The notes below the pieces were generated by a model, which saw only the letters and a program-made list of their open reading frames with translations, made no database searches and had not been told where the DNA came from. Source: Blastococcus saxobsidens (GTDB lineage: Bacteria; Actinomycetota; Actinomycetes; Mycobacteriales; Geodermatophilaceae). From it: a stretch of DNA of 64,000 nucleotides. The stretch lies in NCBI RefSeq assembly GCF_002938435.1, contig NZ_POQT01000021.1, positions 1 through 64,000 of the forward strand. Reading direction: 5' to 3'. This document shows, one piece after another, positions 488-8,242 of the stretch. Position 1 is the first letter of the stretch. The number at the start of each line of letters is the position of its first letter. The translations under genes and the position numbers were made by a program.

Positions 488-1534
488 TCAGGAGAAGGCG
501 GGCATCACCTCGTCGTGCAGCAGCCGCAGCTGCTCCTCCACCGACGCGACCCCCGGGATCTCGCGGCCGGTGAACGTCTTGACGATCGACGCGTCGGTGA
601 TGGCGGCGACGATGTGGTTGACGCCCGCGGGCTCGATCTCCTTGATCTTGGCCGTGACCTCCTCCGGGGTGCCGGCGAAGGAGAGCTTGTCGGCGAGCTC
701 CGGGCTGGTCAGCTCGATGCCGCGGGCGAGGTCCCCGCCGCCGATCGCGTCGATGATCGGCTCGAGCTCGGCCGGGTCCACCCCGTTGCGCTCCAGCTGC
801 TCGGCCGGCATGGAGGAGGCGTAGATGCCGACCATGCTGCGGGCGGCGTCCTTCGCGGCGGCGGAGTCGCGGCCCACGGCGACGACCACCCAGGCGCCGA
901 AGTCCAGCGTCGTCCAGTCCTTGCCGGCCCGCTCCGCCCCGATCCGCAGGTGCTCGGCCGCGTAGTCGTAGGCCTCGCGTGTGTAGCTGAGGGCGTGGTG
1001 GCAGCCGTCGGAGTGCTCGGCGGCCGCCTCGAACGACTTCGGTCCGCGCATCGCCCCCATCTTCACCGGGAGCCGCTCCTGCACCGGGCGGGCGAAGGTG
1101 AAGAGCCCGTCGTAGGAGAAGAACTCGCCGTCGCGGGTGATGGCCCCCTCGTCCAGGAAGGTGCGCACGACGTGCACCGCCTCGATGACGCGGGAGAGCG
1201 GCTTGGTCTTCGTCCAGTCCATCTTGTACTGCGCCAGCAGCCCGAAGTTCCCGCTGGAGAGGACCACCTCGGCGCGGCCACCGGTGAGCTCGTCGAGGGT
1301 GGCGGCGGCCTGGGCGATGAGCGTCGGCTCGCGCAGGGTGACCGGCGAGACGCTCGGCCCCATGCGGATCCGGGAGGTGCCGGCCGCCGCGGCCGCGAAC
1401 AGCAGCCACAGGTCCTTGTGCCAGGTCTCGTCGGCCGCGTAGACGGCGTGGAAACCGAGCTCGTCTGCCAGCCGGATGGCCGCCAGCGACTCCTCCAGCG
1501 AGTAGTCGGGCAGCATCGCGTAGCTGAACCTCAT
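488..1534 (-). CDS. LLM-class (luciferase-like) flavin/F420-dependent oxidoreductase
   Basis: This 348-residue protein has the bacterial-luciferase TIM-barrel fold pattern of F420-dependent enzymes related to methylene-tetrahydromethanopterin reductase: an N-terminal MRFSYAMLPDYSLEESL strand, SRIRMGPSVSPVTLREP in the first third, and a C-terminal LSFAGTPEEVTAKIKEIEP. The ATG at 1534 follows a perfect GGAGGAG box. Its start overlaps the stop of the upstream permease by 4 nt (ATGA), so the two are probably translationally coupled and work on the same compound. The substrate cannot be read from the sequence; FMN instead of F420 is possible. Confidence 0.85.
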   Translation of the reverse strand: MRFSYAMLPDYSLEESLAAIRLADELGFHAVYAADETWHKDLWLLFAAAAAGTSRIRMGPSVSPVTLREPTLIAQAAATLDELTGGRAEVVLSSGNFGLLAQYKMDWTKTKPLSRVIEAVHVVRTFLDEGAITRDGEFFSYDGLFTFARPVQERLPVKMGAMRGPKSFEAAAEHSDGCHHALSYTREAYDYAAEHLRIGAERAGKDWTTLDFGAWVVVAVGRDSAAAKDAARSMVGIYASSMPAEQLERNGVDPAELEPIIDAIGGGDLARGIELTSPELADKLSFAGTPEEVTAKIKEIEPAGVNHIVAAITDASIVKTFTGREIPGVASVEEQLRLLHDEVMPAFS

Positions 1535-3222: not shown

Positions 3223-3942
3223 TCAGCCCTGGAGCGGGCGACCGTCGCGGGCCAGGAAGACCCGCCAGGGCACGCCGTCGACGGGCGCACCGTCGACGAG
3301 CTCCCCCGCCCCGTCCGGCAGCAGGCTGCCGACGAGGTGGTGGGGAACGGTCGAGAGCACGACCCGCCCCTCGTCATTGACCAGGACGAAGGCCGCCGGC
3401 CGGCTCCCGAGCGCCTGGAGGAGGTGCGTCTCGAACCGGCGCACGGGCACGTCGGCGCCCGTCACGCCGACGAACTCCCCCTCGGCGACGACGGGCGTGG
3501 TCAGCGTCAGCAGGTATCGGCCGGTGCCGTGGACGTCGACGTAGGGCCCGACGACGTGCCGCCGCCCGGTCCGCCTCGGGACGTCGAACCACTCGGTGGC
3601 CGTGTAGTCGTAGTAACCCAGGCTGCTCGGGCGCAGATCCGGCTCCAGGGTGCGCAGCGACCCACCGTCGGGATCCACCTGCCACCACTCCAGCCGCAGG
3701 GGCAGACCCTCGCGCGGACGGGGCGCCACCACGAGCCCGAGGCCCACGGCCAGCTGCCCGGGATCGCGCAGCAGCTCGCGGGTGCCGCCCGGCAGGACGG
3801 CCCGCCCGGACTCGAGCCCGTCCCGGGCGACCGAACCCAGTGCCGCGTCGTGCACGCGCGCGACGGTCTCGAAGACGCGCTCGACCACCCGGGACACCGC
3901 TGCGCCGATCCGAGCGGCGTCAGCCGTCCGCCGGTCGTTCAC
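3223..3942 (-). CDS. Soluble Cache-domain sensor-like protein
   Basis: A 239-residue protein with the long helix then PAS-like beta-sheet layout of Cache/PDC sensory domains: helical residues 1-60, then LGYYDYTATEWFDVPRRTG, GPYVDVHGTGRYLLTLTTPV and FVGVTGADVPVRRFE, which is the usual Cache ligand-pocket segment. No signal peptide or membrane helix is evident, so it appears cytoplasmic, whereas most Cache domains are extracellular. The GTG start overlaps the stop of the GntR regulator by 4 nt. Such tight coupling suggests it is a ligand-sensing partner or co-regulator of the GntR protein; that role is inference. Confidence 0.72.
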   Translation of the reverse strand: MNDRRTADAARIGAAVSRVVERVFETVARVHDAALGSVARDGLESGRAVLPGGTRELLRDPGQLAVGLGLVVAPRPREGLPLRLEWWQVDPDGGSLRTLEPDLRPSSLGYYDYTATEWFDVPRRTGRRHVVGPYVDVHGTGRYLLTLTTPVVAEGEFVGVTGADVPVRRFETHLLQALGSRPAAFVLVNDEGRVVLSTVPHHLVGSLLPDGAGELVDGAPVDGVPWRVFLARDGRPLQG

Positions 3943-4715
3943 GACACCTGCCGCTCGGCGCCGCCCGATGCATCCCCGAGGCGCTGCAGCCGCAGCTCGA
4001 TGGCCCACAGCGTGCGCGTCTCGATGTGCGACTCGGTGAGGGCCCGGGCCCGGGCGGCGTCCCGGTCCTCGATCGCGTCGATCACGGCCCGGTGCCCGGC
4101 GACGATGACGTCGAGCAGGCTGGGGGCCACCTCCGGCGGCCACGGCAGCTGGCTGAGCTCCAGGTGCAGGTCCATCTCCTGCATGGTCAGCCGCACGGAC
4201 TGCGCGCAGGCGGCCAGCTCGATGTAGTACCGGCCGTCGGTCCGCCGCTGGCCGGTCACCGATCCGGCCGAGGCGAGCCGGTCCACGATGTCGCGCAGAC
4301 GGGCGATCTCCGTGCGCGACGCCCGGGAGGCCGCGAGCCGGGCCGCGGCGGCCGCCACCGCGCCGTGCACGTCGCCGAGCTCGCGCAGGTCCGTGGTCCC
4401 CAGCTCGGCCAGGCGGGCGTCGGCGAGCTCGGCCAGCACGTCGTCCCGCGAGCGGACGAAGCTGCCCCCGCCACGACCGCGGCGGGTCTCGACCAGCCCG
4501 AGCTTGCGCAGCTCGGCCAGCGCTTCGCGCAGGGTCACCGTCGAGACGTTGAGCATGGTCGCGAGGTCGGTCTCGCTGGGCAGCTGCTCGCCGTCCCCCA
4601 GCAGGCCGAGGGCGACGGCGCTGCCGACCCGGCGGACGACGGCCTCGCTGCGCAGCGCGCCGTCGTCCAGCGGTGCGAAGACAGCGCGCCGCGCATCACC
4701 GCTGAGCAGTTGCAC
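3939..4715 (-). CDS. GntR-family regulator, FadR/FCD subfamily
   Basis: A 258-residue regulator. Residues 20-90 form the GntR winged helix (QLPSETDLATMLNVSTVTLR then EALAELRKLGLVETRRGRGG). The rest is the all-helical FCD effector domain, with metal-ligand type histidines such as in VAGHRAVIDAI and LTESHIETR. The GTG start at 4715 is preceded by AGGAGGAG. It is divergent from the Fe-S/FAD oxidase genes and upstream of the Cache gene, so it probably represses or activates both directions through the inverted repeat at 4766-4799. FCD regulators usually bind small carboxylic acids. Confidence 0.9.
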   Translation of the reverse strand: MQLLSGDARRAVFAPLDDGALRSEAVVRRVGSAVALGLLGDGEQLPSETDLATMLNVSTVTLREALAELRKLGLVETRRGRGGGSFVRSRDDVLAELADARLAELGTTDLRELGDVHGAVAAAAARLAASRASRTEIARLRDIVDRLASAGSVTGQRRTDGRYYIELAACAQSVRLTMQEMDLHLELSQLPWPPEVAPSLLDVIVAGHRAVIDAIEDRDAARARALTESHIETRTLWAIELRLQRLGDASGGAERQVS

Positions 4716-4840: not shown

Positions 4841-6355
4841 GTGACACAGGTCCAGCCCGAACGGGCGACCGGGCCGACCCCTCCGGTCGACGCCCTCTCC
4901 GAGCCGTTCACGCCCGGCGCCCCGTCCAACGCGCCCGAGCTCGCCGACTACCCGGAGACGCTCGCCGGTCCCGTCCCCCCGCCACGGGAGGACCCGAAGA
5001 CGGCGGCGTTCGTCGAGCAGTGGCGGAACACCTCCTACAACTGCTTCTCCTCGGGTCACAAGTTCTGCCGCGAGGTGTGCCCGGTGACCCAGGTCGAGCG
5101 CAACGAGTCCTGGACCCCCACCGCGTTCCACGCCAACGTCATCGCGATGGAGCGCGGCGAGCTCGACATCGCCGACATCGCCGCCGACTACGTGAACTGC
5201 ACGCAGTGCGGCGCCTGCGAGCTGCGGTGCCCCAACACGCTGTTCACCGGCGACTTCTACCGCTTCCGCACCCGCACCGTCGACGTCGTCAAGGCGGTGC
5301 GTTCCCTCGCCGTCGAGAGCGGCGTGCACCAGCCGAACTGGCAGAGCTGGAACGAGCGCACCGACCTGCGCACCCACGAGCCCGTCCTGGGCGAGACGCC
5401 GGTCAGCCAGGAGAAGGTCCGCGACTGGGCCGACGGGCTCGACATCCCGATCGGCGGCGAGACCGTCCTCTTCGTCGACTGCGAGGCCGCCTTCTACCGG
5501 ACGTCCGTGCCCCGCGCGGTGGCCCAGATGCTGCAGATGGCCGGGTACGAGTTCGGCCTGATGGGCGAGCAGTGGTGCTGCGGCGGGCCGGCGGCCGAGA
5601 TGGGCTACGAGGAGCAGGCCAAGCGCTTCGCCCGCCACAACCTGGACAACTGGCGGGCCACCGGTACCAAGCGCCTCCTCGTGCTCGACCCGCACGACTA
5701 CATCAGCTTCACCGAGGACTACCCGAAGTACTTCGGCGAGGAGTTCGACATCGAGGTAGTCCTCGTGATCGAGGTGCTGGCCGACCTCCTGCGCACGGGC
5801 AGGCTGACCCCGTCCGTGCCGGTGGAGCGCGCGATCACCTACCACGACCCCTGCCGGCTCAACAAGCGCAAGGGCATCTGGAAGGAGCCGCGGGAGCTGC
5901 TGCGGGCCATCCCCGGTCTCCGGTTCGAGGACGTCGACCGGGTCACCCAGTGGTCCTACTGCTCCGGCGGGGGCGGCGGCCTCCCCATCGAGAAGCCCGA
6001 GCTCACCCAGAAGATCAGCGCGATGCGCCTGGAGCGGGCCGCCGAGCTCGACGTCGACACGCTCGTCAGCGCCTGCCCGTGGTCGGAGCGGCCGCTGTCG
6101 GAGGCCGGCGACGCCCAGGACATCGACGTCGTCGACCTGCACGAGCTGTTCGCGCAGTCCCTCGGCATCACCGTGGGCGGCTCCCGCGGCGACGTCGGCG
6201 ACCGGCGGCTGGCCCAGGAGCGCACCGGCGTGCCCGGCCGGGCACGCCGGACCTCGGGCACCGGTCGCGGCGGCTGCGGTGGCGGTGGCGGTGGGTGCGG
6301 CGGAGGCGGCGGGTGCGGCTCCGGTTCCGGCGGCTGCGGATGCGGAGGGCACTGA
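4841..6355 (+). CDS. Fe-S cluster (CCG-domain) subunit of an FAD-dependent oxidase, with Gly/Cys-rich tail
   Basis: A 504-residue protein like the iron-sulfur subunit of glycolate/D-lactate oxidases and heterodisulfide reductases. Residues 60-150 hold two 4Fe-4S motifs: a CREVC-containing set and CTQCGACELRCPN. Two CCG domains follow, with QWCCGGPAAE near residue 250 and YCSGGGGGLP near residue 380, plus TYHDPCRLNK. The last ~30 residues are almost only Gly and Cys (five Cys), not usual for this family. GTG start after GAGGAGC. It is followed after 2 nt by the FAD oxidase, its probable partner in oxidising a 2-hydroxy acid or related substrate. Confidence 0.85.
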   Translation: MTQVQPERATGPTPPVDALSEPFTPGAPSNAPELADYPETLAGPVPPPREDPKTAAFVEQWRNTSYNCFSSGHKFCREVCPVTQVERNESWTPTAFHANVIAMERGELDIADIAADYVNCTQCGACELRCPNTLFTGDFYRFRTRTVDVVKAVRSLAVESGVHQPNWQSWNERTDLRTHEPVLGETPVSQEKVRDWADGLDIPIGGETVLFVDCEAAFYRTSVPRAVAQMLQMAGYEFGLMGEQWCCGGPAAEMGYEEQAKRFARHNLDNWRATGTKRLLVLDPHDYISFTEDYPKYFGEEFDIEVVLVIEVLADLLRTGRLTPSVPVERAITYHDPCRLNKRKGIWKEPRELLRAIPGLRFEDVDRVTQWSYCSGGGGGLPIEKPELTQKISAMRLERAAELDVDTLVSACPWSERPLSEAGDAQDIDVVDLHELFAQSLGITVGGSRGDVGDRRLAQERTGVPGRARRTSGTGRGGCGGGGGGCGGGGGCGSGSGGCGCGGH

Positions 6356-6357
6356 CC

Positions 6358-7935
6358 ATGACGATGACCGAACCGACGGCCGCGGCACCGATCGGCACCG
6401 CGCCGTTCACCCGTGAACCCCTGGACGACGCGGCGCTGAGCACCCTGGTCGCCGCGCTGCGCCCGATCCTCGCCGACGACCAGATCCTGCTGGCCAAGAC
6501 CGACCGCTACAACCGCGCCCGCGTGCCTGCGCCGTTCCCGGTGCACCGCTGGTCCGAGCGGGTCCCCGACGTGGTGGTCATGCCCAGCACGACCGAGCAG
6601 GTGGCGGCGGTGGTGAAGGTGGCCAACGACCTGCGCATCCCGGTCGTGCCCCGCGACGGCGGCACGGGGCTCACCGACGGCGCCGTGCCGATGCGCCGCG
6701 GCATCGTCGTCGACGTCAAGAAGATGAACCAGATCCACGAGCTGGACCTGGTGAACCGGACGGTCACCGTCGGCACCGGCATCAACATGCTCAAGCTCAA
6801 CGAGCGGCTGGCCCAGCACGGGCTGTTCTACCCGGACGACCCGGCCTCCTACCCCTGCTCGCTGGTCGGGGGCCGGATCGGCACGAGCGGCTGGTCGCTC
6901 ATCGGCTCCCGCTACGGGCACACCCGGGACCTGGTGCTGAGCTTCGACCACGTGCTGCCCACCGGCGAGGTCCTGCACGTCGGCGACGGCATCGGCCGGA
7001 AGATCAGCAAGTCCTCCAGTGGATACCAGCTCAAGCACCTCTTCATGGGGCACCAGGGCACCCTCGGCATCGCGACGAAGGCGACGCTGAAGCTGTTCCC
7101 CAAGCCCGAGGCCGAGCTCTCACCGTTCTGGGCGTTCGACAACTACGAGGACGCCCACGCGTGCACCGGCGCCCTGGCCCGCGCGGGGGTGGCCACCTTC
7201 GCCGGTGCCGTCCTCTTCGACGAGCACAAGGTCGCCTACCTGCGCCGCGACGACGAGGCCTACATCCCCCAGCCGGCCGACGTCCGGGCGCTGGTCTGCT
7301 CGGTGATGTACGGCTACGAGGACGAGGTGCGGGCCGGTGGGAAGCGGCTGTTCCGGATCGCCAAGGAGCACGGCGCCCGCTACCTCGGCGACGAGATCTC
7401 CGAGGGCGACTGGGCGGCCCGGCACGACCGGTACGCCACCCCGCTGCACGGCCGCACCAAGGACGGCCAGGTCATCCCCATGTCCTGGCACTGCGAGGAC
7501 GCGGCGGTGAACTACTCGAACGTCCCCGCGGTCAGCAAGGCCTGGCACGAGATCCTGGCCGACCTGCGGCGGAGGACCGACGTCTTCGACGACTGGGGGA
7601 TGTTCGCGTACACCTCGGCCAGCACGGGGGTCGACTACCTCACCGAGATCGACGTCGGCATCTGGGAGCAGCGCCTGGACGACGCTGCCTGGGCCGCGTG
7701 GGTGAAGGCCAAGCGGGACATCGGCGCGGTGGCGCTCGCCCACGGCGGCTCGATGAGCGCCTGCCACGGCTCCTGCCGGGAGGGCGAGGTCGACCTGGTG
7801 CCCGACGAGCTCGGCCGCGGCTTCGACGTGATGCTCGACGTCAAGCGGGCGCTGGACCCGAACAACATCATGAACCCGGGCAAGTACCTGCTGGACCGGG
7901 CCTACGGGAGGGACACGACCGATGAGAACCGATGA
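6358..7935 (+). CDS. FAD-binding oxidoreductase, GlcD/D-lactate dehydrogenase type
   Basis: This 525-residue flavoprotein has an N-terminal PCMH-type FAD domain (VVVMPSTTEQVAAVVKVAND, VPRDGGTGLTDGAVP, then VGGRIGTSGWS and GHQGTLGIATKATLKLFP) and a C-terminal FAD-oxidase domain ending in RALDPNNIMNPGKYL, the standard end of GlcD/lactate dehydrogenase proteins. The ATG at 6358 is 8 nt after GGAGGG; the gene starts 2 nt after the Fe-S gene stop. It should oxidise a 2-hydroxy acid or similar compound and pass electrons to the Fe-S subunit. The real substrate is not evident; the nearby aldehyde dehydrogenases may act downstream. Confidence 0.88.
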   Translation: MTMTEPTAAAPIGTAPFTREPLDDAALSTLVAALRPILADDQILLAKTDRYNRARVPAPFPVHRWSERVPDVVVMPSTTEQVAAVVKVANDLRIPVVPRDGGTGLTDGAVPMRRGIVVDVKKMNQIHELDLVNRTVTVGTGINMLKLNERLAQHGLFYPDDPASYPCSLVGGRIGTSGWSLIGSRYGHTRDLVLSFDHVLPTGEVLHVGDGIGRKISKSSSGYQLKHLFMGHQGTLGIATKATLKLFPKPEAELSPFWAFDNYEDAHACTGALARAGVATFAGAVLFDEHKVAYLRRDDEAYIPQPADVRALVCSVMYGYEDEVRAGGKRLFRIAKEHGARYLGDEISEGDWAARHDRYATPLHGRTKDGQVIPMSWHCEDAAVNYSNVPAVSKAWHEILADLRRRTDVFDDWGMFAYTSASTGVDYLTEIDVGIWEQRLDDAAWAAWVKAKRDIGAVALAHGGSMSACHGSCREGEVDLVPDELGRGFDVMLDVKRALDPNNIMNPGKYLLDRAYGRDTTDENR

Positions 7936-8242
7936 CCAGCCCACCGGCCCGGCGGCGACGGCGCCCTACCGCTTCGCCGAGCAGCACACCCCGCCGGAGG
8001 CGCAGCGGGCCAGCGAGGTGGCGCAGACGACCTTCGAGCACGTTTACGAGGTGGACCCGCGCCTGATGCAGGAGCACGTGCTCCAGCAGGTCTTCCCGAA
8101 CTGGGACACGCTGCGCATCATGCGCAGCCGGCACGACCACCTCGAGTGGATGCACCGGCACTTCGCCGACAAGGTGGTGACCGGGTCGGAGATCCTCGCC
8201 GAGGTCGAGCGCGAGGCGACCTCGCCCCCGCCGGCGCCGTAG
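7922..8242 (+). CDS. Uncharacterised small protein, third gene of the oxidase operon
   Basis: A 106-residue protein I do not recognise. It overlaps the end of the FAD oxidase gene by 14 nt, which argues for a real coupled gene. It is hydrophilic and mostly helical in appearance, with a proline-rich tail; the middle (EVDPRLMQEHVLQQVFPNW, then RSRHDHLEWMHRHF) is rich in His, Trp and Arg. No membrane segment, signal peptide or Cys motif is seen. It could be an assembly or accessory subunit of the Fe-S/FAD oxidase. A strong terminator follows. Confidence 0.65.
   Translation: MRTDDQPTGPAATAPYRFAEQHTPPEAQRASEVAQTTFEHVYEVDPRLMQEHVLQQVFPNWDTLRIMRSRHDHLEWMHRHFADKVVTGSEILAEVEREATSPPPAP

Follow-up and report, generated by a model that had tools for sequence, protein, structure and literature searches.

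Several described proteins bear on the locus reported here. GciS, a Gly/Cys-rich protein of giant viruses (2023, doi 10.1021/jacs.2c10484), carries [2Fe-2S] and linear [3Fe-4S] clusters, according to the passages of PMC13083937 and PMC12499515 in which it is cited. TIGR04222 membrane proteins, found mostly in Actinomycetota, are described in the relevant part of PMC12452194 as having a disordered, Ser/Gly-rich C-terminal stretch with Cys. Hdr, in the portion of PMC13083937 that deals with it, employs its CCG clusters on a disulfide, and the same report treats EtfD of Mycolicibacterium smegmatis (PDB 9OJN), which gave the best match in both sequence and fold to the core of our protein. A search of the open-access literature, with most subscription journals outside its reach, returned nothing about this enzyme bearing a Gly/Cys tail.

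The window, i.e., the whole stretch of DNA analyzed, comprises 64,000 nt of the Blastococcus saxobsidens genome (4.52 Mb; hereafter G000). Its Fe-S subunit gene (4841..6355, plus strand; 504 aa, GTG start) encodes two ferredoxin-type motifs, two CCG domains, a linker, and a tail, in that order. Reading the ORF directly, we found that the 504-residue protein ends in GRGGCGGGGGGCGGGGGCGSGSGGCGCGGH, whose last 30 residues (6263..6352, plus strand) are mostly Gly with five Cys and a terminal His, and terminate in CGCGGH (6335..6352). The tail that the sequence-only reading had placed at 6265-6352, with five Cys and a terminal His, is therefore real and correctly located. The preceding linker (residues 447-474, GSRGDVGDRRLAQERTGVPGRARRTSGT; 6179..6262, plus strand), as delimited with the help of the structural model, is alike in long-tail orthologues and has a helix predicted at residues 450-462. 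Directly 3' of the Fe-S gene lie a GlcD-like FAD subunit gene (FAD_binding_4 and FAD-oxidase_C; 6358..7935, plus strand) and then a gene for a small third protein of 106 aa (7922..8242, plus strand), and a divergent gene for a GntR/FCD regulator occupies 3939..4715 on the minus strand. The window also holds a gene for a Mer-like LLM oxidoreductase (488-1525, minus strand; scores below the family cut-offs), which is found near the Fe-S cassette in 52/64 loci in differing orientation.

Given that Cys makes up 1.0% of the 10,521 residues in likely genes of the window, the chance of at least five Cys in 30 residues is approximately 1.6e-5 (Poisson, post hoc). Among 311 window ORFs of at least 60 aa, the Fe-S gene alone has at least four Cys and at least 15 Gly in its last 30 residues. 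Likewise, in 72 related loci (810,528 bases, partly overlapping; 3,887 ORFs), 25 ORFs have at least four Cys and at least 12 Gly in that stretch, and all 25 are the Fe-S gene. Querying the window genome itself with the 30 residues retrieved no further tail, the query matching only itself in a single first-look search of doubtful sensitivity. Thus, the Gly/Cys tail on the Fe-S subunit, an electron-carrying protein of soil actinobacteria, is real, and among the loci that we read, no other ORF has one.

In Pfam, the core matched CCG (PF02754; 75.5 bits, cut-off 20.6, over two stretches) and Fer4_8 (31.1 bits); the PF02754 score, together with Foldseek matches to EtfD, LutA, and HdrB, places the protein in the CCG-domain/HdrB-type superfamily, and its profile match to EtfD had an E-value of 7.6e-23. 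The protein lies outside the GlcF equivalog (NF008434; 42.1 bits versus a cut-off of 333), as well as outside the TfrB equivalog (NF004898; 123.1 bits versus 385), its best NCBIfam match. The label "glycolate-oxidase type" given by the sequence-only reading was accordingly a loose one. Thirteen core Cys are invariant in 64/64 aligned rows (including four duplicate genomes), whether tailed or tailless, so the tail replaces no core ligand and can be ruled out as a substitute for one.

More specifically, the EtfD D1 ligands C503, C538, C581, and C584 align with C214, C246, D283, and D286, and the four-Cys set of a linear [3Fe-4S] D1 cluster is thus absent. For the D2 ligands (C637, C672, C673, C709, C712, and H583), C338, C374, C412, and H285 are kept, and S375 and S415 stand for two Cys (C673 and C712), leaving the noncubane [4Fe-4S] D2 set incomplete as well. 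As Asp replaces C581 and C584 and Ser replaces C673 and C712, the alignment indicates that EtfD-type clusters D1 and D2 cannot form unchanged and that the CCG clusters must differ from those of EtfD. The residues aligned to these ligands are invariant in the 46 rows of alignment A1, the Asp and Ser at 283-286, 375, and 415 lying within DPHD, CSG, and CPWS; judged from these rows, the replacements belong to the whole family and not to the tail. The first ferredoxin motif (residues 68-80) has three Cys only (C-x7-C-x3-C) with an invariant His73 between them, and a His-ligated [4Fe-4S] cluster is possible there.

With respect to distribution, an orthologue (E ≤ 1e-60) was present in 6/60 related genomes, G000 included, and the nearest named orthologues, from Geodermatophilus and Blastococcus, are 91-95% identical. 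A scan of genome contigs gave 64 loci, in which gene ends were read wherever the gene was intact. We built a tree of 60 rows from the Fe-S cores without the tail, leaving out of both tree and core alignment (i) the paralogues L002 and L003 and (ii) the broken or partial genes L008, L061, L064, L069, L071, and L072, and leaving out of the tree and of the count of long tails (iii) the duplicates L004-L007; the tailed genes of G078 and G082 are additional to that count. With long tails defined by at least four Cys and short ones by two or three, the 60 orthologues comprise 24 long, 10 short, and 26 without a Cys tail, and the fewest state changes on the tree are nine for the three states and four for the long state. 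Long tails occur in Geodermatophilus, Blastococcus, a Frankiales MAG, Pseudonocardia kunmingensis, Segeticoccus, Micromonospora veneta, and two Microbacterium; short ones in six other Pseudonocardia, two Microlunatus, Nocardioides aequoreus, and Murinocardiopsis; and none in Prauserella, the remaining Nocardioides on the tree, Actinomadura, and others. Kibdelosporangium, sister to P. kunmingensis (support 100/96) inside a tailed clade, ends in GDRRGGQ without a Cys tail, for which loss of the tail is the simplest account. Three Agromyces beside the Microbacterium pair have an extension of 39-62 residues with zero Cys, and two Geodermatophilaceae MAGs (L066 and the partial L072) also lack a Cys tail. 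Two plasmid records matched, one of them an orthologue (Georgenia) aligned over residues 1-443. The Cys tail is thus a graded trait, as 10/60 orthologues have short ones. Lineages that have retained the tail maintain it by selection on the protein, but the family as a whole can do without it.

The 24 distinct long tails have Gly/Cys stretches of 19-29 residues, with five Cys in 20, four in three, and six in one. Their ends read GCGCGGH in 21, CGCGGAH in two, and CGCGGQH in one, so that a CGCGG core followed by His is present in 24/24; Cys-Cys spacing ranges from 2 to 11, and only the end is fixed. The Gly codons of the end motif vary while the residues stay. Of the codons that differ from GGC by a single base, the stretches contain TGC 111, AGC 7, GCC 4, GAC 1, GTC 0, and CGC 0, from rows that share ancestry and are not independent; on this count, drift from Gly codons would not favor Cys to the extent observed. 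Slippage in a GGC repeat had been proposed by the sequence-only reading for the case that orthologues proved tailless. Although 26/60 are, plain local slippage fails because a long tail whose end is constant has been retained in 24 orthologues and a short tail in 10, and an artefact of slippage alone is ruled out by the Cys number and end kept in 24 distinct rows. The tail DNA is nonetheless repeat-like (TRF arrays with periods of 6-21), and slippage likely changes the length of the tail but does not account for the kept Cys. In an AlphaFold model of moderate quality (mean pLDDT 74, pTM 0.74), tail residues 468-504 have pLDDT below 50, as do residues 1-14, 69-75, 85-89, and 367-372; since some of these low stretches belong to the core, the model makes a disordered tail likely but does not establish it.

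Genomes were also searched with a DNA pattern for CGCGGH followed by a TRR stop, the reversed pattern serving as a control. The 112 family genomes gave 24 matches in 23 genomes (control, 5), i.e., 19 at the Fe-S gene, one at a copper amine oxidase gene, and four not at a convincing gene end, and 394 genomes of the class gave eight, one of them G000, against 19 for the control. Outside the Fe-S gene, the numbers were five versus five (family) and seven versus 19 (class); as the controls were not exceeded there, the Fe-S gene by itself accounts for the excess of the end pattern. The copper amine oxidase of G091 (L132, contig C10) ends in CACGDACGCGGH, and the ends of 30 other amine oxidases that we read often have Cys or His nearby, in varied forms. 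In genome G507, a 329-codon open frame with no family match (L138:532-1518) has the Gly/Cys end GGGCGGCGGSCGCGGH. L140 is a doubtful open frame of 272 codons with the end pattern, and the other class-genome matches lack a stop or a long frame. The look-alike ends on the amine oxidase and the L138 frame may be due to chance, and are notable for their longer Cys/Gly stretch.

The Cys, the CGC pair, and the terminal His point to metal or thiol chemistry, and the tail is probably an arm that deals with metal or electrons. As the tail hangs on an Fe-S protein and GciS offers a precedent, we favor, by analogy, a disordered Cys/His arm that would hold a labile extra Fe-S cluster or metal as a relay or loading arm, a tentative reading that leads the alternatives while falling short of probable. 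Such an arm would sit on the Fe-S subunit of a GlcD-like FAD/CCG-domain dehydrogenase, where a labile metal site beside the core clusters would be bound by thiols of the tail, its CGC pair, and its final His. The site might contain an Fe-S cluster ([2Fe-2S] or linear [3Fe-4S]) or transiently an Fe, Zn, or Cu ion, and might provide one more relay for electrons or a point of entry during the assembly and repair of clusters. Favoring this reading are the five Cys in 20/24 long tails, the His end in all 24, the excess of TGC, the varying Gly codons of the end, the low pLDDT of residues 468-504, and the reach of the tail to Micromonospora, Segeticoccus, P. kunmingensis, and Microbacterium, with slight further weight from the similar ends CACGDACGCGGH and GGGCGGCGGSCGCGGH on two other proteins. 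Speaking against it are the Cys spacing of 2-11, unlike that of a rigid site, with only the end fixed; the 26/60 tailless orthologues, the apparent loss in Kibdelosporangium, and the Cys-free Agromyces extensions; the viral nature of the precedent; the share of the end's conservation that belongs to the ribosome-binding site of the FAD gene; low model confidence in stretches other than the tail; and an end motif that does not exceed the reversed control on other proteins. In our ranking, the metal arm comes first, a CGC redox arm next as the main rival, and the absence of a protein function third.

Mobile C-terminal Cys arms are known from thioredoxin reductase and ribonucleotide reductase. 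By the same token, the CGC pair could cycle between dithiol and disulfide, taking electrons from the CCG site and handing them to a thiol partner, or guarding the enzyme against oxidation, which we consider unlikely, even as the chief competitor of the metal arm. All 24 long tails contain CGC, the tail is probably flexible according to the model, and the core has HdrB and EtfD among its relatives, Hdr being an enzyme with CCG clusters that works on a disulfide (in the cited portion of PMC13083937). Nevertheless, a dithiol arm needs neither the terminal His nor the further Cys, the tail is absent from 26/60 orthologues, and Asp286 and Ser415 occupy the places of the bridging, catalytic Cys of Hdr (as far as these are given in that source), thus making Hdr-like disulfide chemistry at the core unlikely.

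Alternatively, the tail may have little or no function as protein, being a GGC-repeat extension produced by slippage whose end is held because the FAD gene has its ribosome-binding site and start context there, an explanation that we regard as improbable. The final two Gly codons in the window read GGAGGG (6344..6349, plus strand), a likely ribosome-binding site located 8 nt ahead of the FAD start codon (ATG). In each of the 24 long-tail rows, a comparable element lies 7-10 nt before the FAD start within the Fe-S coding sequence (GGAGG in 14, GGAG in two, and the weaker GGGGG in eight). To judge from these sequences, the ribosome-binding site of the next gene accounts for part of the conservation of the end, and the TRF arrays, the frequent absence of the tail, and the failure of the end motif to exceed the control outside the Fe-S gene agree with an absence of function. 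However, the overlap explains two Gly, but not four to six Cys or the His. Moreover, GGAGG, GGAG, or GAGG occurs 4-12 nt before the FAD start in 18/26 rows without a Cys tail, so the ribosome-binding site needs no Cys. The dominance of TGC among one-step neighbors of GGC, and the restriction of such a tail to the Fe-S gene across the 72 loci, likewise speak against this explanation.

The composition of the tail also resembles that of Cys/Gly-rich RiPP precursors such as microcin B17. The Cys could accordingly be sites of modification (azoline, thiooxazole, or similar), as the sequence-only reading had suggested in proposing that the tail carries a modification. TIGR04222 proteins, with disordered Ser/Gly-rich ends containing Cys, are frequently found beside MNIO genes (in the pertinent part of PMC12452194), and among tailed genomes tested, a YcaO gene is present in 11/22 and an MNIO gene in 2/18. 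In contrast, the window genome and others with the same tail have neither, and no modifying enzyme was recognized among the flanking proteins scanned. MNIO (PF05114) was absent from 16/18 distinct tailed genomes, G000 included (0/20 genomes in one test, 11 of them tailed, then 2/10 tailed genomes in another, three being repeated), the two positives being the genomes of L051 and L070. YcaO (PF02624) was absent from 11/22, i.e., from G000 and 10/21 others, and all 11 positives carry the genus code g5 (1/5 and 10/17 in two tests). A YcaO role might yet exist within genus g5 alone, the same tail occurring elsewhere without YcaO. The proposal is thus weakened for both enzyme classes tested, and we deem it very unlikely.

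In 14 of the 19 family genomes whose tailed Fe-S gene was found with the end pattern, a copper amine oxidase gene shares the contig with it at a distance of about 7-54 kb (G013, G026, G033, G075, G077, G078, G080, G082, G085, G090, G092, G093, G098, and G099). Permeases, aldehyde dehydrogenases, and regulators are also found near the tailed Fe-S genes so linked, and the neighborhood looks like an amine-degradation island. That the tail buffers copper or another metal for this island, capturing it for copper amine oxidase chemistry or guarding against that chemistry, is in line with this linkage and with the end motif shared by one copper amine oxidase, but has little to recommend it, as a copper amine oxidase is present in 70/108 family genomes, of which just 16 belong to the 19 tailed ones, the gene is on another contig in G000 (contig C20) and G005, and none is among the listed matches for G063, G068, and G079.

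The sequence-only reading had further suggested that the tail recruits the small third protein. The small gene adjoins the Fe-S gene in 61/64 loci, tailless ones included, the exceptions being L029 (the contig ends after the FAD gene), L071 (a fragment), and L064 (an internal stop in the Fe-S frame, with neither FAD nor small gene found). As the small gene also accompanies tailless Fe-S genes, its presence does not depend on the tail, and recruitment is not supported as a need. The 106-aa protein matched neither Pfam nor NCBIfam families at E ≤ 0.01, and a low-confidence model of it (pTM 0.30) had no counterpart of similar fold in the PDB at E ≤ 0.001. Fourteen of its residues, including W61, D62, R65, R70, and H80, are invariant in 33 rows.

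If the favored metal arm does hold a cluster, disordered Gly/Cys stretches would be genuine Fe-S ligands in cellular enzymes, and low-complexity tails elsewhere would merit metal assays; as a redox or loading arm, the tail would give simple mutational access to the way in which CCG-domain dehydrogenases transfer electrons or take up clusters. Since nature provides cores that are closely similar but have long, short, or missing tails, the question lends itself to direct testing.

Compared with described systems, the TIGR04222 proteins are analogues in composition only: their tail is predicted to lie outside the cell, often beside MNIO genes (as described in that part of PMC12452194), whereas ours is on a CCG enzyme subunit, mostly in genomes without MNIO. 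GlcF/GlcD glycolate oxidase, TfrB, and LutA-type CCG proteins likewise pair a CCG-domain Fe-S subunit with a GlcD-like FAD neighbor, but the window protein scores far below the curated equivalog cut-offs and has both the tail and the conserved 106-aa neighbor. EtfD shares two ferredoxin motifs, two CCG domains, and a long disordered C-terminal region, as far as PMC13083937 describes it; in contrast, the window protein has half the length, with a match confined to approximately EtfD residues 410-746, lacks equivalents of C581, C584, C673, and C712, and is encoded next to a GlcD-like FAD gene. GciS, as described in the excerpts that cite it, resembles the tail in composition, both being Gly/Cys-rich, but is a stand-alone protein of the viral particle, whereas the tail is the C-terminal arm of a CCG-domain subunit. 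Extending this analogy, the tail could conceivably correspond, in cells, to the Gly/Cys-rich Fe-S proteins of giant viruses, as a disordered stretch joined in cis to an electron-transfer subunit with CCG domains, with a fixed CGCGGH end and a labile cluster acting as a swinging step of an electron wire, in a module gained and lost among actinobacteria and perhaps re-used elsewhere, a speculation to which we assign a low likelihood.
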